Below are positions 15,765 through 25,529 of a DNA stretch of 64,000 bases, piece after piece. Within the stretch, counting starts at the first letter, position 1; each line of letters starts with the position of its first letter. The notes below the pieces were generated by a model. That model saw nothing but the letters and a program-made list of their open reading frames with translations. It was not told the DNA's origin and made no database searches. Where the stretch lies: NCBI GenBank assembly GCA_902556905.1, contig CACDYK010000001.1:1-64000 (forward strand), written 5' to 3'. Both the position numbers and the translations under genes were made by a program. The DNA is from an uncultured Pelagibacteraceae bacterium. GTDB lineage: Bacteria > Pseudomonadota > Alphaproteobacteria > Pelagibacterales > Pelagibacteraceae.

Positions 15765-16445
15765 TTATAATTTGTGAGTTTCTGAAACAAGCTGCGCAAC
15801 AATTGATAAAGCAATTTCAGGAGCAGATTTTCCTCCAAGTTTAATACCTATTGGTCCATGTATTGACTCAATTTCTTCTTCATTAAATCCAGCCTCTTTT
15901 AATCTTTCACATCTCTTAATATGCGTTTTTTTACTCCCAAGAGCACCAATATAAAAAAACTTATTTTTTAATGCATGCCTTAATGCTGGATCATCTATTT
16001 TTGGGTCATGGGTGAGTGTTATTAATGCATTATTAGAGTTTGTTTGTAATTTATTTAAAATTTCATCTGGCCACCCATTTATAATTTCTATATTTGGAAA
16101 TCTTTCTGTAGTGATAAAATATTTTCTTGGATCAATAATTTTAACTTCAAAATCAAGATTTTTAAATAAATCAAACAAATATTGAGAAATATGAACAGCT
16201 CCTACAATAATAACCTCAATTGGCTTTATGTAGTTCTGAATAAATATTTGAGTTCCATCAATAACGCCATTTTTTTTAAGATAATGATAATTTTCTATTT
16301 CTTTTTTAGAACTTTCAAAATCTTTACTTAAGAATTTTCCAAATTCAAATATTTCACTATTACCATTAATCAAATTTGTTAATACAGCAAAATTTTCTTT
16401 AGAAGATTTTTTTTTAATTATCTCTTTGAGTATTTGTATTTTCAT
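15765..16445 (-). CDS. xdhC: XdhC-like protein, C-terminal Rossmann domain as a separate gene
   Basis: The 226 residues match the XdhC C-terminal domain: a nucleotide-binding IIVGAVHISQYLFDLF segment, VKIIDPRKYF, ALITLTHDPKIDDPALRHAL, YIGALGSKKTHIKR and a GPIGIKLGGKSAPEIALSI end. XdhC proteins bind the molybdenum cofactor, help sulfurate it, and insert it into xanthine dehydrogenase. The start overlaps the stop of the upstream N-terminal-domain gene by 4 bases (ATGA-type coupling), so the two chains probably assemble into one factor. It faces away from xdhAB but lies in the same island. Confidence 0.88.
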   Translation of the reverse strand: MKIQILKEIIKKKSSKENFAVLTNLINGNSEIFEFGKFLSKDFESSKKEIENYHYLKKNGVIDGTQIFIQNYIKPIEVIIVGAVHISQYLFDLFKNLDFEVKIIDPRKYFITTERFPNIEIINGWPDEILNKLQTNSNNALITLTHDPKIDDPALRHALKNKFFYIGALGSKKTHIKRCERLKEAGFNEEEIESIHGPIGIKLGGKSAPEIALSIVAQLVSETHKL

Positions 16446-16774
16446 GAATTAATTTGTTCAATAAAAATTTTTATTTCACCTCCACAGGCCAGACCTACAT
16501 CCCATGCATTTTCTTCAGAAACTTTAAATTTTATTTGCTTAAATAAATTATTATTCTTTATTAATTCTAAACATTCAGCTATTACATTTGACTCCACACA
16601 ACCACCTGAAACTGATCCAAAAAAGTCTCCTTTTTCATTAATAATCATACTACTCCCTGTGGGACAAGGAGAGGAACCCCAAGTATGAATTACTCTTGCA
16701 AGCACTACTTTTTGGTTAGATTCAATCCAGACATTAGCCTGTTCCAAAACTGTTCTCTTCAATTGTTTTTTCAT
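16442..16774 (-). CDS. XdhC/CoxI N-terminal domain protein
   Basis: The 110 residues match the XdhC_CoxI domain: VVLARVIHTWGSSPCPTGSSM, then GSVSGGCVESNVIAE and WDVGLACGGEIKIFIE. The conserved cysteines of this domain (SGGCVE and LACGG) are present. It precedes and overlaps the Rossmann-domain gene by 4 bases, so the usual single XdhC chain is divided in two. Together they should load sulfurated molybdopterin cofactor into XdhAB. A 50-base gap holds the divergent promoters for this gene and the cytochrome c gene. Confidence 0.87.
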   Translation of the reverse strand: MKKQLKRTVLEQANVWIESNQKVVLARVIHTWGSSPCPTGSSMIINEKGDFFGSVSGGCVESNVIAECLELIKNNNLFKQIKFKVSEENAWDVGLACGGEIKIFIEQINS

Positions 16775-16824
16775 ACAACAAATTTATCTTTTTAGTTTTT
16801 TTTATTTATGATACCAAATTTACA

Positions 16825-17148
16825 ATGAAAAAATTATTTTTAAATTCTTCAAAAGCTTTCTTCATAATACTATTTTCATCAATTATACATGTTAATGCTG
16901 ATGAAATATTTATTAAAGGAAAAGAAGTTTTTCTTGAGGCCGGAAATTGTGCTGCATGTCATACTCTTTCAGATGCGGGTTCAAACGTAAATATTGGTCC
17001 AAATTTAAACGAAATCAGACCAGATATTCAAAGAATCATAATGGCGGTTAGAAATGGAATAGGAGTGATGCCTGCTATGGAAGGTATATTAACTAATGAA
17101 GAAATAGAGGCAGTTGCCCACTATGTTTCTATAAGTGCTGAACAATAA
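16825..17148 (+). CDS. Small periplasmic cytochrome c, candidate electron acceptor of urate oxidase
   Basis: The 107 residues begin with a signal peptide (about 1-25, cleavage near VNA-DE). A class I cytochrome c fold follows, with haem-binding C42-A-A-C45-H46 and a likely axial methionine at M82 or M85. Only ~82 residues remain after cleavage, about the size of the cytochrome c domain at the C-terminus of canonical PuuD. The PuuD in this island lacks that domain, so this protein is a good candidate partner. That assignment is inference. The gene stands alone on the + strand, between two minus-strand catabolic groups. Confidence 0.88.
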   Translation: MKKLFLNSSKAFFIILFSSIIHVNADEIFIKGKEVFLEAGNCAACHTLSDAGSNVNIGPNLNEIRPDIQRIIMAVRNGIGVMPAMEGILTNEEIEAVAHYVSISAEQ

Positions 17149-17156
17149 TAGAGATT

Positions 17157-18056
17157 TTAACTATAATTTTTAATCCAATGTTTTGCTATGTCTATTCTTT
17201 TACAAATCCAAATATCATTAAATTTTGAAATATAATTTAAAAATTTTTTAAGTGATTGTATTCTTCCAGGTCTTCCAATTAATCTACAATGTAAACCAAC
17301 AGACATCATTTTTGGTGAAGTTTTTCCTTCTTCATAAAGAGCATCAAAGCTATCTTTTAAATAACTGTAAAATTGTTCACCAGAATTAAATCCTTGATTA
17401 GTAGCAAATCTCATATCATTGTTATCGAGTGTGTAAGGTATCATTAACTGTTTTTTATTACCTTTTTTTACCCAATATGGAAGATCATCACTGTATGTAT
17501 CACTACAGTATAAAAAGTTACCATTATCTATCACTAAATTTAATGTATTCGAACTGCACCTACCAGTGTACCAGCCTGCAGGGCGAGTACCAAAATTTTT
17601 TTTAATAGATTTTATAGCAAGTTTCATATCATTCTTTTCTTTTTTTTTTGGCACATTTTGATAATCAATCCATCTCCACCCGTGACTAGCAACTTCATAA
17701 TTAGCTTTTTTAATAGCCGAACAAACATCTTTATTTCTTTCTAATGCCATTCCAACTCCAAAAATAGTTAGTGGGATTTTTTTTTTGGTAAATAAATCAT
17801 GAATTCTCCAAAATCCTCTTCTTGATCCATATTCATAAATAGATTCCATATTTAAATGTCGACCTTTAATTGGTTTTGCTCCTATAATTTCTGATAAAAA
17901 TACCTCTGAAGTTTTATCACCATGAAGAATACAATTCTCTGCTCCTTCTTCATAATTGAGTACAAATTGTAATGCCAACCTGGCATTTCCAGGCCACTTT
18001 ACCTTAATTTTTTTGGAACCATATCCTACTAAATCCCTTGGATATTTTTTTTTCAT
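17157..18056 (-). CDS. puuE: Allantoinase of the polysaccharide-deacetylase type (PuuE)
   Basis: Cytosolic hydrolase opening the allantoin ring to allantoate. It belongs to the NodB-like fold rather than the dihydroorotase-like AllB family. Signatures are LALQFVLNYEEGAENCILHGD near the N-terminus, then SIYEYGSRRGFWRIHDLF, VASHGWRWIDYQ and GRPGRIQSL near the end. At 299 residues it is the usual PuuE length. It overlaps the upstream ureidoglycolate lyase gene by 4 bases and is the last gene of the minus-strand set uraD-alc-allA-puuE, which covers the urate-to-glyoxylate steps not encoded on the + strand. Confidence 0.93.
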   Translation of the reverse strand: MKKKYPRDLVGYGSKKIKVKWPGNARLALQFVLNYEEGAENCILHGDKTSEVFLSEIIGAKPIKGRHLNMESIYEYGSRRGFWRIHDLFTKKKIPLTIFGVGMALERNKDVCSAIKKANYEVASHGWRWIDYQNVPKKKEKNDMKLAIKSIKKNFGTRPAGWYTGRCSSNTLNLVIDNGNFLYCSDTYSDDLPYWVKKGNKKQLMIPYTLDNNDMRFATNQGFNSGEQFYSYLKDSFDALYEEGKTSPKMMSVGLHCRLIGRPGRIQSLKKFLNYISKFNDIWICKRIDIAKHWIKNYS

Positions 18057-18544
18057 TTTTTTAAAATAATTTTATCTTTTTTAAATTTATAAATAACAAG
18101 ATTGTTTCCTTTTCCTTTTCTGTCAACAATTAGGTAATTCATGTTTTTCAAAGAAATAAGTGGAAAGTGCCAAATACCAGCCTTGTAATTTACTCCTGTT
18201 TGTTTAGGAACTAAAAAGGATTGGATTTTGTCTATATCTGGTTTATCTCCTCTAGGAGCTACAAATACTAAAAATTTTGTATCTTCCATTGGTATAAAGG
18301 CTTGGCTTCCTAAAGGATGTTTTTCCATCATATCAATTTTCATTGGAAATCCCCTTTTTTTGGCTTTAAAAATACTAATTATTGCTTTACCTTTTTTTTT
18401 AGAAGTATCTATATTTATTAAATCATCAAATCTTTTTGCATATCCATTATTAATACTTATTGGATTTTTTTTGGATGTATCTATTAATTGTCCAAACTTA
18501 GAAAAATTTTTTTTAGTTATATTTTTTGCTTTTATTACTTTCAT
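18053..18544 (-). CDS. allA: Ureidoglycolate lyase
   Basis: Splits ureidoglycolate into glyoxylate and urea, the last step of this pathway. The cupin-like AllA fold is indicated by the N-terminal NFSKFGQLID, then MEKHPLGSQAFIPM, PGxxGVNYKAGIWHFPLI-like residues (KQTGVNYKAGIWHFP) and a final NYLIVDRKGKGNN. At 163 residues it is the expected size. Both neighbours overlap it by 4 bases (allantoicase upstream, puuE downstream), so the genes are tightly coupled. Urease is not in the window, so the fate of the urea cannot be told. Confidence 0.9.
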   Translation of the reverse strand: MKVIKAKNITKKNFSKFGQLIDTSKKNPISINNGYAKRFDDLINIDTSKKKGKAIISIFKAKKRGFPMKIDMMEKHPLGSQAFIPMEDTKFLVFVAPRGDKPDIDKIQSFLVPKQTGVNYKAGIWHFPLISLKNMNYLIVDRKGKGNNLVIYKFKKDKIILKK

Positions 18545-19527
18545 TTTACAAAATTTCCAAATGCTCTTATTCTAGAAATTCCTCCATCTGGATGGATATT
18601 TATTTTAAGATAATTTTCCTTATTTCTTTTAATTAAAAATTTTTTAAATATATGTTTTTTGTGTGCAGATAGCTTAGATTTATTTAAAATAAATTTCCAA
18701 TTCTTTGAATTATTAACAATTGATTTATTTGATAGATTTTTTGTAATATTTGCAGTTTGAATAGAGCAAGTATCAGGGTAATTTCCTTTAAAATGATGAG
18801 TATCTATCTCTAATTTTTTTATCAAACCTGGTTTTCCAAATTTTATTATTAGCCAATCAAAGTTTTTTCCTCTACTTCTTCTTGTTTCCCAGCCATCTCC
18901 CATATTTTTTCCCTTACCAGGAGCTATTATATTTTCAGCCTTTCCAAAATGCTCATTATTACAACCAATAATTGAAGCACCATTTAAAACAGAGGTTAAA
19001 TTTACATTTTTATTATTAAAAATGTTTTTTCCCATTTCAATTTCTCCATAAAGTCTAAGTCTTGCAACTCCACCATCAGGAAAGATATTCAGTCTTATAT
19101 AATTAAAAACAGATTTGTTTTTTGATTTAAAGATATGATTTTTGTTTGGTCCAAGCTTTTTTTTACCTAATAAGGATACCCATTTTGTTTTTTTACTAGG
19201 TTTAGATTTACTAAAGCAACCTTCTAAAGATGCGTGAGTTGGTTGATTTCCATTAAAGTATGTTGTGTCAATGTCTATATCAAAGATCTTTCCAGGTTTT
19301 CCTAGTTTTAAAATTAGATAATCAAAGCCTTTTGATCTTCTTCTTCTAGTTTCCCATCCATCCATCCATTTACCATGTTTGTCAAATAGCCCATCTTTAA
19401 AAACTGGAGTATCTGTATTTAAAATTCTATTAGCAGCTGCAAAAAAATCATCAGTCTTAAATATAATTTTAGATCCGACTCTAGGATCGGCTAGATTGAT
19501 CATTTTTGCACTTATAAATTTTTTCAT
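18541..19527 (-). CDS. alc: Allantoicase
   Basis: Hydrolyses allantoate to ureidoglycolate and urea. The 328 residues contain two copies of the allantoicase beta-sandwich. Each copy has a DGWETRRxR motif (about residues 55-63 and 209-217) and a later DGGxxRxRxYG-type signature (PDGGVARLRLYGE and PDGGISRIRAFGN). The second copy ends at the C-terminus. The start overlaps the uraD stop by 4 bases and the stop overlaps allA by 4. Allantoicase rather than allantoate amidohydrolase means that nitrogen leaves as urea, not ammonia. Confidence 0.94.
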   Translation of the reverse strand: MKKFISAKMINLADPRVGSKIIFKTDDFFAAANRILNTDTPVFKDGLFDKHGKWMDGWETRRRRSKGFDYLILKLGKPGKIFDIDIDTTYFNGNQPTHASLEGCFSKSKPSKKTKWVSLLGKKKLGPNKNHIFKSKNKSVFNYIRLNIFPDGGVARLRLYGEIEMGKNIFNNKNVNLTSVLNGASIIGCNNEHFGKAENIIAPGKGKNMGDGWETRRSRGKNFDWLIIKFGKPGLIKKLEIDTHHFKGNYPDTCSIQTANITKNLSNKSIVNNSKNWKFILNKSKLSAHKKHIFKKFLIKRNKENYLKINIHPDGGISRIRAFGNFVK

Positions 19528-20021
19528 TTTTTATTTATTTCTTTAAGACGAAAGGTTGCAATTTTCTTTACTTGTTTTTTTGCTTCTAGGAATTCACTTT
19601 CTAAATCACTTTGTATTCTTTGTCTAAAATTATTTAATATTTCATTTTTATTTTTTCCTTTTACAGCAATTATAAAGGGAAAATTAAATTTTTTTTTATA
19701 TTCTGAATTTAATCTTATAAATTCCTCATATTCCTCATAAGAACATTCGTTTAATTTTGCAGAAGCTTGTTCTAATATAGACTCCGTAGTCATTTTTTTT
19801 GACACAGCAAGCTCAGGATGAGCATTTAAAATTTCTAAAATTTTTTTTTTTTCATAATTTTCGTAAATATTCAGCATTTTAAACACAACATCTTCGAAAT
19901 TTTTAAATGGCTTGGAATTAAAAGCTTCCAAGGCTACTGATTCAGTTTTTTCAAAAACATTACCAAATACTGATAAAAAATCAGACTTGTTAAGATCGTT
20001 AATGTTATCTATTGTTCTCAT
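19524..20021 (-). CDS. uraD: 2-oxo-4-hydroxy-4-carboxy-5-ureidoimidazoline (OHCU) decarboxylase
   Basis: Decarboxylates OHCU stereospecifically to (S)-allantoin. Signatures are FLSVFGNVFEKTESVALEAF near the N-terminus, ILNAHPELA around the middle, and a long final helix LESEFLEAKKQVKKIATFRLKEI. At 165 residues it is the usual length. It is the first gene of the minus-strand set and is divergent from the HIU hydrolase gene, its metabolic predecessor, across only 48 bases. That gap must contain both promoters and would be the place for common control. Confidence 0.92.
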   Translation of the reverse strand: MRTIDNINDLNKSDFLSVFGNVFEKTESVALEAFNSKPFKNFEDVVFKMLNIYENYEKKKILEILNAHPELAVSKKMTTESILEQASAKLNECSYEEYEEFIRLNSEYKKKFNFPFIIAVKGKNKNEILNNFRQRIQSDLESEFLEAKKQVKKIATFRLKEINKK

Positions 20022-20069: not shown

Positions 20070-20420
20070 ATGACAAAGCTCACAACTCATGTTTTGGATG
20101 TATATTCAGGTAAACCTGGCAAGGGTATCTTGGTTGAGTTATTTTATTTAAATAATTCTGAAAGAAAAAAAATAACTTCAATAAAACTTAATGATGATGG
20201 AAGAGCAAGTTCACCGTTAGCAGAGGGAGAAATTTTTGTTAAAGGTAAATATGAATTAGTTTTTTACATTGGTGATTATTTTAAAAATATATCATCAATA
20301 AACGATATGCCATTCTTGGACGATGTAGTAATAAGATTTGGTATTTCAGATCCCTCGCAGCATTATCATGTACCTTTACTAGTTTCACCATGGAGTTATT
20401 CTACTTATAGAGGCAGTTAA
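20070..20420 (+). CDS. uraH: 5-hydroxyisourate hydrolase (transthyretin-like)
   Basis: Hydrolyses 5-hydroxyisourate, the product of urate oxidation, to OHCU. It is a transthyretin-related protein of 116 residues. The N-terminal LTTHVLDVYSGKPGKG carries a catalytic histidine, and the C-terminal HYHVPLLVSP segment leads to the diagnostic YRGS tail at 113-116. There is no signal peptide, so it is cytosolic. The stop codon is immediately followed by the GTG start of xdhA (zero-base gap), making it the first gene of the + strand catabolic operon. Confidence 0.95.
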   Translation: MTKLTTHVLDVYSGKPGKGILVELFYLNNSERKKITSIKLNDDGRASSPLAEGEIFVKGKYELVFYIGDYFKNISSINDMPFLDDVVIRFGISDPSQHYHVPLLVSPWSYSTYRGS

Positions 20421-21857
20421 GTGATATCAAGCTCAGTAAAATTTTTATTAAATGATAAGATTCTAGAAATAAAAAACCCTGATCCAAATCAAACAATTCT
20501 TAATTATATTAGAACTGAACTAAAAAAAACTGGAACTAAAGAGGGTTGCTCAGAAGGAGGTTGTGGAGCATGCACAGTTGTTTTTGGTGAGTTAGTTGGC
20601 AATAAAATCAAATATAGTTCAATAAATTCTTGTATTTCATTTGTACCATCTTTGAATGGTAAGCAACTTTTGATTGTAGAAGATTTAGTTTCCAATGATG
20701 GGAAACTCCACCCAGTTCAAGATGCGATGGTAAAATTTCATGGATCACAATGTGGATTTTGCACACCGGGATTTGTTATGTCTTTGTTTTCAATGTTTAA
20801 AAATAATAAAAGTTATAACAGTGAATTAATAACAGACTCAATATCAGGAAATTTATGTCGTTGCACTGGTTATAGACCTATTATTGATGCTGCAAAAAGT
20901 TTAAATAAGTCAAATAAGAACGATGAATTTAGCAAAAATAAAAATAAAATTATTAAATTATTAAAAACAATTAAGCCAAAAAATATTTATATTAAAAAAG
21001 GTAATAAAGTTTATTTCTCTCCTAAAAACATCAATGATTTAAAAAATATAATAAAGAATAATTCAAATTTTAATTTTCTTGCTGGTGGTACAGATTTATC
21101 TTTAACAGTTACAAAAGAGAGAAAAGAAATTCCATTTATAATTGATTTAAAAGAAGTTAAAGAATTAGATTTTATAAGGTTAAGTAAAAATTACTTAGAA
21201 ATTGGAGCTGCCACCCCATTAATTAAATTTGAAAATGAAATTAAAAGATATTATCCAGATTTTTATTCTGTTCTTAAGAGATATGGCTCTGTTCAGATTA
21301 GAAATGTTGGCACTATAGGTGGCAACATTGCAACGGCATCACCGATAGGTGATTCATTACCAATTTTACTATCTTTAAATGCTGAAGTTTTATTAGAAAG
21401 CTTTAATGGAAAAAAAGTTTTACCAATAAATAATTTTTTCATAGATTATAGAAAAACTAAGTTAAAAAAGACCGAATTTATTCGATCAATAAAAATACCA
21501 TTATATAAAAAAAATATATTTAAAGCATATAAAATATCAAAAAGATTTGATGATGATATTTCATCTGTTTGTGGCTCCTTTAATTTTGAAATTAATAATA
21601 ACAAAATCAAAGAGGTATATATTGCATATGGAGGTATGGCAGCTATACCAAAAAGAGCTAAAGCGTGTGAAAAAAATCTTAAAAATAAGCCTCTTAATAT
21701 CAATACTTTTGATCAAGCAAAAAATTATTTAGAAAAAGATTTAACTCCTATTGGAGATATGAGAGCAAGCAAAGAATACAGACTAGAGGTAGCAAAAAAT
21801 TTATTAATGAAATGTTTTATAGAAATAAACTCTAATAAATTAACAAGAGTTAATTAA
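20421..21857 (+). CDS. xdhA: Xanthine dehydrogenase small subunit (FeS and FAD domains)
   Basis: Electron-transfer subunit of XDH, 478 residues. The N-terminal plant-type [2Fe-2S] domain has C43, C48, C51 and C71. The second [2Fe-2S] domain has CGFC (about 113-116) and CRC (about 147-149). An FAD-binding domain follows, with LAGGTDL and IRNVGTIGGNIATASPIGDSLP, then the C-terminal flavin domain. The start is GTG, directly after the uraH stop; no in-frame ATG fits the family N-terminus. It passes electrons from the molybdenum site in XdhB to FAD and then NAD. It is directly followed by xdhB. Confidence 0.95.
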   Translation: MISSSVKFLLNDKILEIKNPDPNQTILNYIRTELKKTGTKEGCSEGGCGACTVVFGELVGNKIKYSSINSCISFVPSLNGKQLLIVEDLVSNDGKLHPVQDAMVKFHGSQCGFCTPGFVMSLFSMFKNNKSYNSELITDSISGNLCRCTGYRPIIDAAKSLNKSNKNDEFSKNKNKIIKLLKTIKPKNIYIKKGNKVYFSPKNINDLKNIIKNNSNFNFLAGGTDLSLTVTKERKEIPFIIDLKEVKELDFIRLSKNYLEIGAATPLIKFENEIKRYYPDFYSVLKRYGSVQIRNVGTIGGNIATASPIGDSLPILLSLNAEVLLESFNGKKVLPINNFFIDYRKTKLKKTEFIRSIKIPLYKKNIFKAYKISKRFDDDISSVCGSFNFEINNNKIKEVYIAYGGMAAIPKRAKACEKNLKNKPLNINTFDQAKNYLEKDLTPIGDMRASKEYRLEVAKNLLMKCFIEINSNKLTRVN

Positions 21858-24161
21858 ATGAGCAAAGAGAACTTTATTGAAGAAATAAGACCACACGATA
21901 GTGCCTATAAACATGTAAGTGGATACGCTGAGTATACTGATGATATTAATGAACCAAAAAACACAATTTATGGTGCTATTGGTTTAAGCAAAAAAGCACA
22001 TGCATTAATTAAAAAAATAGATTTAACAGATGTAAAAATAAGTGAAGGTGTTATTTCGGTCGTTACACAAAGTGATATTATAGGTAGAAATGACGTAGGT
22101 CCTGTTTTTGATGGTGATCCTATTTTTCCAACAAAAAAAGTTGAGTTTTATGGCCAACCATTGTTTGCAGTAGCTGCTACAACGACTGAACTTGCAAGGA
22201 AAGCGGTATTAAAAGCTAATATAACTTATAAAGAGTTAAAACCAGTTATTACAATAAAAGAAGCTTTAAATAAAAAACAGTTCTTATTTAAACCTAGAAA
22301 AATAAAAAAAGGAAATCCTTCAAATAAAATAAAAATATCAAAAAATATTTTAAAAGGTAATTTTACAACAGGTGGTCAAGAACACTTTTATTTAGAAGGT
22401 CAAGCCGCCTTTGTTATTCCCAAAGAAGATGATAATTTTTTAGTCTACAGCTCAACTCAACATCCTTCAGAGACACAACAACTAATTGCAAAAATGTTCA
22501 ATCAAAAAAGTAATTCAATAAATGTTGAGGTAAGAAGAATTGGAGGTGGGTTTGGGGGAAAAGAAACAAATTTTATGACTGCTTGTATTTGTGCATTGTT
22601 AGCTAAAAAATCAGGTAAGCCTGTAAAATTAAGATTAGATAGAGATGACGATATAATATTGACGGGTAAAAGGCATGAATTTTTATCTGAATATGAAGTT
22701 GGTTTTAGTGATGAAGGAATTATTGAAGGATTAAAAATAAACTTATCTTCAAATTGTGGAATGTCGCCTGATTTATCAGCAGCAATAAATGAAAGGGCTT
22801 TGCTTCATATAGACAATGCATATTATATTTCTGATATTGAGGTAACAAACAATTTGTGTAAGACAAATATTCCAACTTCAACTGCATTTAGAGGCTTTGG
22901 TGGAAACCAAGGAATGATGGCTATAGAAAATATTATAGATAATATTTCAAGGTACCTAAAAAAGGATCCGATAGAAGTTAGAAAGAAAAATTTTTATCAA
23001 AAAGATAAAAAAAATGTAACTCATTATGGGATGAAAATTCAAGATAATGTAATTAATGAAATATTTAAAAATTTAGAAAATAAATCTAATTATAAGATAA
23101 GATATTCTAATATAAGAAAATTTAATGAAAAAAATAAATTTAAAAAGAAAGGTATAGCTATTACACCATTAAAATTTGGTGTTTCATTTACAACAATTCA
23201 TTTAAATCAAGCTGGGGCTTTAGTCCATATTTACACTGATGGAAGTATATATTTAAATCATGGGGGCATAGAAATGGGCCAAGGAACTCATACAAAAATA
23301 GCTCAATTAGTGGCAAATTCTTTTGGATTACCGTATAATTTAGTTCATATCTCATCCACGAATACATCTAAAGTTCCTAATACATCGGCTAGTGCTGCTT
23401 CATCAACGACAGATCTTAATGGAGCCGCAGCTTTAAATGCAGTAGCAAAAATTAAATTAAATCTAGAAAAATTTATCAAGAAAAAATATAAGATCTACAA
23501 TCAAGAAGCAGTTTATAAAGATCAATATATAATATTTGGAAATAGACAATTTGAATTTAAAAGCATTATTCAAGAGGCATATTTAAATAGAATTTCTCTT
23601 TCATCGTCAGGTTTTTATTCAACACCAAAAATCAATTTCGATAAAAAAAAATTTAAAGGAAGACCCTTTTATTACTTTTGTTATGGTGCGGCTGTTTCAG
23701 AAGTAACCATAGACACATTGACTGGTGAAAATGTTTTAGAAAGAGTTGATATTTTACATGATGCTGGAAAACCAATAAATCCTGCACTTGAACTAGGTCA
23801 GATTGAAGGTGGTTTTATTCAAGGACAAGGTTGGCTGACTATTGAAGAGCTTAATTGGAAATCAAACGGACAGATTACAACTTTTTCTCCATCGACTTAT
23901 AAAATACCAGCAGTAAGTGATATCCCAAAAAAATTCAATGTGGAAATTTTTAAAGAAGGATTAAATAAAGAAAAAGTTGTTAATAAAGCAAAAACTACTG
24001 GAGAACCGCCTTTGATGTTAGCTATGAGTGTTTTTTATGCAATCAAGGACGCGGTTGCTTCAATTGGAAACTATCAGATTACACCAGAACTCAATGCACC
24101 AGCAACTCCAGAAAGAATTTTAATGAGTATTAATAGAATTAAAAATCAAAATGGAAGATAA
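21858..24161 (+). CDS. xdhB: Xanthine dehydrogenase large subunit (molybdopterin)
   Basis: Catalytic subunit oxidising hypoxanthine and xanthine to urate, 767 residues. An N-terminal aldehyde-oxidase hammerhead domain (about 15-125) is followed by two molybdopterin-binding regions. Signatures are GGQEHFYLEGQAA, RRIGGGFGGKE, AFRGFGGNQGMMA and the active-site base E716 in TTGEPPLML. The ATG follows the xdhA stop with no gap, and the stop overlaps guaD by 11 bases. Base usage is as AT-rich as the core genes around, so there is no sign of recent transfer from a high-GC donor. Confidence 0.96.
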   Translation: MSKENFIEEIRPHDSAYKHVSGYAEYTDDINEPKNTIYGAIGLSKKAHALIKKIDLTDVKISEGVISVVTQSDIIGRNDVGPVFDGDPIFPTKKVEFYGQPLFAVAATTTELARKAVLKANITYKELKPVITIKEALNKKQFLFKPRKIKKGNPSNKIKISKNILKGNFTTGGQEHFYLEGQAAFVIPKEDDNFLVYSSTQHPSETQQLIAKMFNQKSNSINVEVRRIGGGFGGKETNFMTACICALLAKKSGKPVKLRLDRDDDIILTGKRHEFLSEYEVGFSDEGIIEGLKINLSSNCGMSPDLSAAINERALLHIDNAYYISDIEVTNNLCKTNIPTSTAFRGFGGNQGMMAIENIIDNISRYLKKDPIEVRKKNFYQKDKKNVTHYGMKIQDNVINEIFKNLENKSNYKIRYSNIRKFNEKNKFKKKGIAITPLKFGVSFTTIHLNQAGALVHIYTDGSIYLNHGGIEMGQGTHTKIAQLVANSFGLPYNLVHISSTNTSKVPNTSASAASSTTDLNGAAALNAVAKIKLNLEKFIKKKYKIYNQEAVYKDQYIIFGNRQFEFKSIIQEAYLNRISLSSSGFYSTPKINFDKKKFKGRPFYYFCYGAAVSEVTIDTLTGENVLERVDILHDAGKPINPALELGQIEGGFIQGQGWLTIEELNWKSNGQITTFSPSTYKIPAVSDIPKKFNVEIFKEGLNKEKVVNKAKTTGEPPLMLAMSVFYAIKDAVASIGNYQITPELNAPATPERILMSINRIKNQNGR

Positions 24162-24621
24162 AAAAAAATTTATGGCAAAAGCCATTGAACTTTCTATCAA
24201 TAGTGCAAACACTGTTGGCGGACCTTTTGGTAGTGTGATCGTTAAAGATAATAAGATTATATCAGAAGGTTCAAATAAAGTAACTTCTTCAAATGATCCT
24301 ACTGCCCATGGAGAAGTTGTAGCAATTCGAGAGGCTTGTAAAAAATTAAATACTTTTGATTTGTCTGGTTGTGAGATTTATACATCTTGCGAACCTTGTC
24401 CAATGTGTCTTTCAGCAATTTATTGGTCAAGATTAGATAAAATATATTATGCAAATACAAGAGAAGATGCAAAAAATATAGATTTTGATGACTCATTTAT
24501 ATATTTGGAGATTCCAAAAAAAATAGATGATAGAAAAATTAAAATGACACAAATGCTTAGAAATGATGCTTTAAAAGCATTTGAAATTTGGGATAAAAAA
24601 GTAGATAAAATAAAATATTGA
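24151..24621 (+). CDS. guaD: Guanine deaminase, CDA-fold type
   Basis: Zinc deaminase of 156 residues, the length of B. subtilis GuaD. The zinc ligands and proton shuttle are in H53-G-E55 (AHGEVVAI) and PCPMC (C83, C86). The C-terminal part NARED-like stretch (ANTREDAKNIDFDDSFIYLEI) is typical of GuaD rather than the tRNA deaminase TadA. It feeds xanthine to XdhAB. It overlaps xdhB by 11 bases, and its TGA shares bases with the puuD ATG (ATGA), so the operon is tightly coupled. Confidence 0.9.
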   Translation: MEDKKKFMAKAIELSINSANTVGGPFGSVIVKDNKIISEGSNKVTSSNDPTAHGEVVAIREACKKLNTFDLSGCEIYTSCEPCPMCLSAIYWSRLDKIYYANTREDAKNIDFDDSFIYLEIPKKIDDRKIKMTQMLRNDALKAFEIWDKKVDKIKY

Positions 24622-25529
24622 TGGAATTTTTACCTTATACGATAAAATGGTTAGAAGTTATTCTAAGATGGGGCCATGTATTATTTGCAATATTATGGGT
24701 AGGTAATAGTTTTTTATTTAATTACTTAGATAATAATTTAAATAAAAATGTAACAAGTGATGATATCGATGGTGAAGGATATCTGATGCATTCTGGTTTT
24801 TTTTATAAACTTTCAAGATTAAAAACATCTCCACCTCAGGATTATTTAAATAGATTAGTAATCTTCAAATGGCAAAGTTATTTAACTTTTGTAACCGGAA
24901 TGTTGCTCTTGGTTGTGATTTATTACTATAACGCTGGCGTTTTGATGGTTGATAAGCGCGTTTTATTAATGCCTCCAAGTTATGCCATTATTATCTCACT
25001 TTTATCATTGATTGTTGCTTGGTTTGTCTATGATCTTTTATGTAAATCAAAATTAATTGAGAGTAATATTTTATTTATATGTACAGGAATAATTTTGTTA
25101 ACGCTTGTATCTTTTGGTCTAACAAAATTATTTGGACCTAAATTTGCAATTTTGAGTGTTGGATTAATCATTGGCACTAATATGTTTGGCAATGTCTTTA
25201 CAGTAATTATACCTAATCAAATGAACATAATTAGTAGTAGCGAAAGAGGTGAAAAATTTGATATGAGCTTATCCTTAGCAGCTAAACAACGGTCAATTCA
25301 CAACAATTATTCAACCTTTTTAGTATTGTTTATAATGCTTTCTGGGCATTCTAGCTTTTTAGTTTATCACCAATATAATTGGTTAATATTATGTGCGATT
25401 GCAATTATTTCTGGGGCAGCAAGACATTATTTTAATTTAAGAGGAAGAAACATTCACAAGTTGTATATTTTAATCTCTTCAATAATTGCACTTATCGTTC
25501 TTGCAGTTTTGGTTTTATTATTTAAATAA
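24621..25529 (+). CDS. puuD: Membrane urate oxidase PuuD, membrane domain only
   Basis: Integral membrane protein of 302 residues with about eight hydrophobic segments. It begins with WLEVILRWGHVLFAILWVGN, the N-terminal signature of the urate oxidase N domain (PuuD). PuuD oxidises urate to 5-hydroxyisourate and passes electrons to a cytochrome c rather than making hydrogen peroxide. In the described alphaproteobacterial protein this domain is fused to a C-terminal cytochrome c; here the chain ends with a hydrophobic helix and has no CxxCH. The ATG at 24621 overlaps the guaD stop; a TTG at 24618 is less likely. Confidence 0.9.
   Translation: MEFLPYTIKWLEVILRWGHVLFAILWVGNSFLFNYLDNNLNKNVTSDDIDGEGYLMHSGFFYKLSRLKTSPPQDYLNRLVIFKWQSYLTFVTGMLLLVVIYYYNAGVLMVDKRVLLMPPSYAIIISLLSLIVAWFVYDLLCKSKLIESNILFICTGIILLTLVSFGLTKLFGPKFAILSVGLIIGTNMFGNVFTVIIPNQMNIISSSERGEKFDMSLSLAAKQRSIHNNYSTFLVLFIMLSGHSSFLVYHQYNWLILCAIAIISGAARHYFNLRGRNIHKLYILISSIIALIVLAVLVLLFK

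Follow-up and report, generated by a model that had tools for sequence, protein, structure and literature searches.

How are electrons carried away from urate when the membrane enzyme that oxidises it lacks its own electron-carrying domain? This question is raised by a purine catabolism island in a 64,000-nucleotide stretch of DNA (hereafter, the window) from an uncultured Pelagibacteraceae bacterium of the SAR11 group (GenBank assembly GCA_902556905.1, contig CACDYK010000001.1, positions 1 to 64,000). PuuD, the cytochrome c urate oxidase of Agrobacterium fabrum, couples a membrane domain (Urate_ox_N/DUF989) to a C-terminal cytochrome domain, and the published generalisation holds that full-length PuuD membrane domains carry such a domain (Doniselli et al. 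2015, PMC4562309). The island shares with this system the Urate_ox_N/DUF989 domain, the pathway neighbours and a c-type haem for the electrons; it differs in that its PuuD has no cytochrome domain and that a separate protein, from another cytochrome family, is present. We consider it probable (roughly 0.6) that SAR11 PuuD lost the fused domain and that a recruited SorU-type cytochrome makes it a two-protein membrane urate oxidase.

The puuD gene (24618..25529, plus strand) encodes 303 amino acids (302 from the ATG at 24621) and matches PF06181 (Urate_ox_N) at 285.7 bits, over positions 2-293 of the 295 in the profile, and no other family. Neither the Pfam scan nor a motif search found a C-terminal cytochrome domain with CxxCH in this chain. 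With a full-length Urate_ox_N/DUF989 domain and a purine gene context (uraD, uraH, xdh), the protein is the PuuD membrane domain, not PuuD in the full published sense. The short DUF989 proteins, with four helices and no cytochrome (Doniselli et al. 2015), likewise lack the cytochrome domain, but they match the domain only partially and occur in other gene contexts. The same genome holds a second DUF989 protein, a short one of 200 amino acids (G000 C18; L343:359-961), which matches only profile positions 168-238; other SAR11 genomes commonly have matches to those positions too. In an alignment of 23 PuuDs, the window protein stops just past the last hydrophobic segment, which is kept. Four histidines (H20, H58, H228 and H244), conserved in at least 95% of these sequences, offer a first lead to a possible haem b in the membrane domain. 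A sequence search of the PDB found no solved PuuD-like structure and returned a single irrelevant match at 0.025.

In the sampled genomes, the missing domain is largely a SAR11 trait. In SAR11 loci collected around relatives of the island cytochrome, 67 of 67 PuuDs have 302-303 amino acids and no CxxCH. Across 289 alphaproteobacterial genomes, our own excluded, there are 64 PuuD matches at E<=1e-100, 63 of them in frames of at least 395 amino acids and one, in G423, in a frame of 308; a weak match in G527 (4e-35) lies inside an 842-amino-acid frame. The 299 Pseudomonadota genomes, a partly overlapping sample, yielded 78 matches, 77 in frames of at least 399 amino acids and the last cut by a contig end. 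CxxCH is present in 58 of the 59 non-SAR11 PuuDs inspected, the exception being G423. SAR11 is therefore not the sole lineage with a domain-less PuuD: in G423, a non-SAR11 alphaproteobacterium, uraH is directly followed by a 303-amino-acid PuuD without the cytochrome domain (L225:7354-8682). In the SAR11 genera g3 and g6, the four PuuDs inspected (L106, L111, L113 and L116) are about 23 alignment columns shorter still and stop before the last hydrophobic segment, so that their C-terminus may be cytosolic.

The candidate electron acceptor is encoded by a small gene on the plus strand (16825..17148), which starts with ATG and specifies a 107-amino-acid precursor, in which CAACH occupies residues 42-46 and Met82-Pro83 follows late in the chain, Met82 being the likely haem ligand. 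By inspection, the protein appears to be exported via a Sec-type signal peptide (MKKLF...VNA/DE), leaving a mature part of 82 residues with a single haem. Pfam matches are to Cytochrome_CBB3 (46.6 bits, cut-off 27) and Cytochrom_C (35.5 bits), and no other open reading frame (ORF) of at least 60 amino acids in the window contains CxxCH. A reading made from the letters alone (the sequence-only reading) had described a signal peptide followed by about 82 residues with CAACH and a late methionine, in the only cytochrome c of the window; both descriptions hold. Against 75 relatives of equal length, the median ratio of nonsynonymous to synonymous substitution rates (dN/dS; NG86) is 0.105 in the mature part and 0.571 in the signal peptide, and across 131 island cytochrome sequences (101 distinct) the identity at C42, C45, H46 and M82 is 98% or higher. 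Because the mature part has a low dN/dS and the haem ligands are conserved, the gene is not a chance ORF.

To which family does this cytochrome belong? The best NCBIfam model is SorU, at 90.7 bits (5.1e-26), with the next model at 41 bits. The score is under the equivalog cut-off of 100, which also shuts out apparent SorUs, since a SAR11 cytochrome beside a SorT-like gene (type B below) reaches only 72.8 bits. The best PDB match is SorU of the Sinorhizobium SorT/SorU pair (4pw9_B, 6.5e-21), aligned over residues 30-104, a stretch that includes CxxCH and the late MP; cytochromes c6 come next at about 1e-6. An origin from SoxX or cbb3 cytochromes, considered as a candidate, was rejected: SoxX scores 33.7 bits (cut-off 61) and ccoP 34.2 (cut-off 179.95), more than 50 bits weaker than SorU. 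These profile and structure-database matches place the island cytochrome in the SorU family of sulfite-dehydrogenase electron acceptors. SorU, the acceptor of SorT in Sinorhizobium meliloti (PDB 4pw9/4pwa; PMC4760952), is a soluble electron acceptor at +108 mV with a pI of about 4; the island cytochrome resembles it in family, in the small single-haem type and in being acidic (12 D+E versus 5 K+R in the mature part). It differs in lying in a purine island, in a genome (86.6% complete) in which SorT was not found, and in its score below the cut-off.

Descent from PuuD itself can be weighed in the same data. In a first tree (102 rows, 89 columns), 50 PuuD C-terminal domains form one clade, set off from the stand-alone cytochromes by a branch of length 2.89 changes per column (support 100/100); because these domains form a separate clade, the cytochrome is, as far as 89 columns can show, not descended from the PuuD domain. 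The sequence-only reading had taken the gene for the missing PuuD domain and had proposed this phylogeny as a check; as a statement of descent, the proposal is not supported. Similar size, a single haem and a PuuD short of exactly that domain would all suit a C-terminal domain freed by gene fission. Set against the PuuD clade, against the lack of a SorU match in three fused PuuDs scanned, and against the different motifs flanking the haem in the two groups, fission is highly improbable. The island cytochrome may stand in for the PuuD domain functionally without sharing its ancestry.

Distant SAR11 relatives are mainly of two types. Type A cytochromes share a cluster with aprBA, TauE, a suyB-like gene and xsc, and those of type B have as neighbours moa genes and a gene for a SorT-like enzyme (546.2 bits to NCBIfam SorT, cut-off 570); the moa and suy names are in part presumptive. 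The first tree lacked 21 of the 33 type B sequences owing to a narrow motif filter. For a second tree (66 rows, no PuuD domains), all 33 were taken and thinned to 21, and the four rpoB-rpoC rows described below and three other rows were left out deliberately. This tree parts the island cytochromes and a cytochrome from genome G014 from types A, B and SorU. The grouping of A with B has support 99/91, the split next to SorU only 80/79, and the island group also takes in one row on a long branch (L159_B_872). A search of other Alphaproteobacteria for the SorU family gave no matches, and the controls were likewise unmatched. Apart from the island, a small SorU-like cytochrome c gene lies between two long genes that are presumably rpoB and rpoC (L137:5157-5471; also L174, L175 and L176; SAR11 genomes G051, G093, G266 and G164), a remarkable location for a gene of this kind.

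Does the cytochrome keep company with puuD? In a cytochrome-centred set (80 of 124 relatives kept), 67 loci extend 8.8 kb or more in the direction of puuD, and all 67 contain it. Since puuE is present in 80 of 80, this set cannot separate the two genes. A puuD-centred set was drawn from 379 genomes of the genus, 95 of them with puuD at E 1e-15; eight of the 95 were already known, and seven of the 87 new ones were left out beforehand (three fragments and four with plus-strand puuD near the contig start). Of the 80 loci inspected, 61 show 8.6 kb or more of upstream sequence and 19 are too short, two of which still show the cytochrome. The two sets are not independent, 23 of the 80 loci being common to both. 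The island cytochrome (55-96% identity) occurs in 48 of the 61 islands, and in 26 of 39 when 22 loci shared with the cytochrome-centred set are removed. The co-occurrence proposed as a check in the sequence-only reading is supported. Twelve of the 48 cytochrome islands, all of them absent from the cytochrome-centred set, show no puuE in view, and there the cytochrome directly adjoins uraD (L269, L271, L273, L275, L276, L283, L289, L290, L314, L323, L325 and L335). Because of these 12, the cytochrome is not merely a follower of the allantoin genes, and adjacency to puuE is ruled out as the whole explanation.

The association extends to whole genomes. Among 297 family genomes, 16 carry a close cytochrome (73% identity or more), all of them in the genus of the window and each with full-length puuD; the cytochrome of G014, 61% identical to that of the window, also coexists with full-length puuD. 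In none of the 297 does a cytochrome of at least 55% identity occur without puuD. The sequence-only reading had named two signs that would tell against it, clustering with an unrelated family and occurrence without puuD: the first was found, the family being SorU rather than SoxX or a cbb3-linked one, and the second was not found at this identity. The gene puuE is present in 43 of the 297 genomes, 27 of which have no close cytochrome. Within the genus (101 genomes), a SorU-family cytochrome occurs in 19 of 20 genomes with full-length puuD and in two of the 81 other genomes (G074 and G154), a hand count for which the Fisher figure of 2.5e-17 carries no kinship correction and is mostly due to linkage. 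The 19 comprise 16 genomes with the island cytochrome and three with a SorT-linked one (G149, G194 and G214); the twentieth genome is G268. The count of two becomes 7/81 if four rpoB-rpoC cytochromes and one weak match are included; with the island genomes left out, the comparison is 3/4 versus 2/81 (p 0.0004) or versus 7/81 (p 0.005), again uncorrected for kinship.

Several observations weigh against the two-protein reading. The cytochrome is not in view in 13 of the 61 puuD islands, so adjacency is not obligatory; five of these have puuE (L264, L265, L272, L274 and L280) and eight have neither gene (L267, L268, L270, L285, L288, L298, L313 and L338). Within islands, cytochrome and puuE are positively associated (36/12/5/8, p 0.02). 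Genome G268 (91% complete) has puuD and no SorU-family match, and in G423 the window cytochrome is unmatched at E 0.1. In g3 and g6, 15 puuD islands, several of them cut by contig ends, show no ORF with CxxCH, and the SorU-like cytochromes of these genera, which lie beside SorT or apr genes in genomes with and without puuD, are non-discriminating. In the first tree, the rpoB-rpoC cytochromes, which come from members of the genus without puuD, are placed on a long branch next to four island cytochromes (90/93, not starred). The G014 cytochrome, which groups with the island ones, adjoins apr genes. Finally, neither PuuD nor the cytochrome gave a usable AlphaFold model; the two mean pLDDT values were 47.2 and 44.5, and both models were left out of the fold searches.

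Some of these points would suit a looser arrangement, in which a domain-less PuuD feeds a general cytochrome c, or any small cytochrome, and the island cytochrome is an optional helper. The 13 islands without it, the lack of a SorU-family match in G268 and the domain-less PuuD of G423 all fit such an arrangement, and candidate partners are present: in our genome (G000; 1.28 Mb, 86.6% complete), Pfam Cytochrom_C matches two further cytochromes outside the window, a CycA/c550-like protein of 179 amino acids (C16) and cytochrome c1. An optional helper sits less well with a gene under purifying selection that is retained in 48 of 61 islands, that stays with puuD when puuE is not in view and whose relatives of at least 55% identity are confined, among the family genomes, to those with puuD. 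We regard the general-cytochrome arrangement as possible but unlikely.

A different objection is that the purine island merely carries a cytochrome whose role, together with SorT or apr, lies in the oxidation of sulfite or sulfonate. The cytochrome is of the SorU family and its relatives of types A and B lie beside sulfur genes; aprA is above cut-off in 21 of 24 genomes tested, our own included; and the G014 cytochrome stands beside apr, which makes it likely that the cytochrome originated in sulfur metabolism and possible that it has two roles. SorT, however, was found in none of the 16 genomes with the island cytochrome, including our own, and the apr cluster as fetched contains no cytochrome in our own genome, G156, G149 or G182, so that a sulfur role lacks a visible partner. 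In G182, which has no puuD, the SorU family is unmatched genome-wide, and the second tree separates the island cytochromes from types A and B, with the modest split support given above. A purely sulfur-related function is accordingly rather unlikely, somewhat more so than the general-cytochrome arrangement. It would also be conceivable that the cytochrome accepts electrons from another island enzyme, above all xanthine dehydrogenase, the other redox enzyme of the island. Xanthine dehydrogenases of such build are cytosolic, whereas the cytochrome looks exported, and we consider this improbable.

Under the two-protein reading, urate would be oxidised by the PuuD membrane domain at the cytosolic face, as in the published topology, which places the C-terminus of PuuD outside. 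The exported SorU-type cytochrome would take electrons one by one from PuuD at the periplasmic face and hand them to the respiratory chain, either via a membrane cytochrome c or straight to a terminal oxidase. The lost domain would then have been replaced by a non-homologous protein, which was recruited from the cytochromes of sulfite oxidation and did not arise by fission. Docking, the flow of electrons, the topology of the window PuuD and the absence of peroxide are inferred. The split, two-protein urate oxidase suggested by the sequence-only reading is supported in part, in its components, with a domain-less PuuD and a conserved, apparently exported island cytochrome that accompanies puuD even where puuE is not in view, and not in its derivation from the PuuD domain.

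A more general formulation, which we would put at about even odds, is that the PuuD membrane domain alone is a urate dehydrogenase with an exchangeable periplasmic acceptor: a fused domain in most lineages and, in SAR11, a SorU-type cytochrome recruited from sulfur metabolism, so that a variable purine island would encode a urate:cytochrome c oxidoreductase of two components. The SAR11 case runs counter to the literature, which generalises that a cytochrome domain accompanies every full-length PuuD membrane domain, and it offers a case in which catalysis and electron transport are naturally separate. It thereby makes testable a question open since 2015, namely, whether the electrons of urate pass from PuuD via a cytochrome into respiration. 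Purine use is a known axis of SAR11 niche differentiation, and a urate step that is respiratory and free of peroxide would agree with the use of purines for energy.

Purine catabolism clusters of SAR11 are already in print (Haro-Moreno 2020, PMC7318151; Braakman 2025, PMC11698098; PMC12636525). In Braakman 2025, PuuD is listed as urate oxidase with xdh, uraD, hiuH, alc, ugl and PuuE, a gene set that points to the same island as in the window. The word 'cytochrome' does not occur in the main texts of PMC7318151 and PMC11698098; it occurs three times in the main text of PMC12636525, at least two of them on other subjects. The literature searched, with subscription papers and preprints largely outside it, yielded no earlier description of a domain-less PuuD with a separate cytochrome.

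The island reads, in order, xdhC (two ORFs, minus), the cytochrome (plus), puuE, allA, alc and uraD (all minus), and uraH, xdhA, xdhB, a deaminase gene, puuD and a phosphoribosyltransferase gene (all plus); the same order was found again among the relatives listed. The split xdhC maturation factor consists of overlapping minus-strand ORFs at 15765-16445 and 16442-16774 (XdhC_C 132.9 bits, XdhC_CoxI 76.3 bits). On the minus strand follow puuE, encoding allantoinase (17157..18056; TIGR03212, 488.3 bits, above cut-off), allA, encoding ureidoglycolate lyase (18053..18544; PF04115, 167.1 bits), an ORF at 18541..19527 that is presumably alc (allantoicase), by its position, the same in relatives, and by resemblance, and uraD, encoding OHCU decarboxylase (19524..20021; PF09349, 135 bits). 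The plus strand carries uraH, encoding HIU hydrolase of the transthyretin family (20070..20420; PF00576, 117.3 bits), xdhA, the small subunit of xanthine dehydrogenase (20421..21857; TIGR02963, 584.9 bits, above cut-off), xdhB, its molybdenum subunit (21858..24161; MoCoBD_1, MoCoBD_2 and Ald_Xan_dh_C), and, adjoining puuD, a gene of the purine/cytidine deaminase family (24151..24621; PF00383, 96.1 bits).

As the sequence-only reading stated, the cytochrome gene lies between xdhC-like genes and puuE: upstream, the xdhC-type ORFs diverge from it (starts at 16774 and 16825), and downstream, puuE converges on it across a gap of 8 bp. By gene orientation, it may have a plus-strand transcript of its own; no terminator-like sites were found in 16600-17300, and promoter-like sites there number 6, compared with 4.0 on average (sd 2.3) after shuffling.

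In the drawn islands without the cytochrome, its place is taken by DUF1330, by a protein of about 296 amino acids or by no further ORF, L264 excepted, where an 855-amino-acid frame with CxxCH occupies it. The gene for the protein of about 296 amino acids (L270:7521-8411 and similar), which is presumably glycosyltransferase-like, lies beside purine genes in several islands and suggests a spot of frequent gene exchange. The xdhC_N part is present in only 30 of the 80 cytochrome-centred loci, some of which are short. In G1035, a single frame (L345:1-1140) joins puuD to the downstream phosphoribosyltransferase gene (Urate_ox_N and Pribosyltran), which could be an assembly error.
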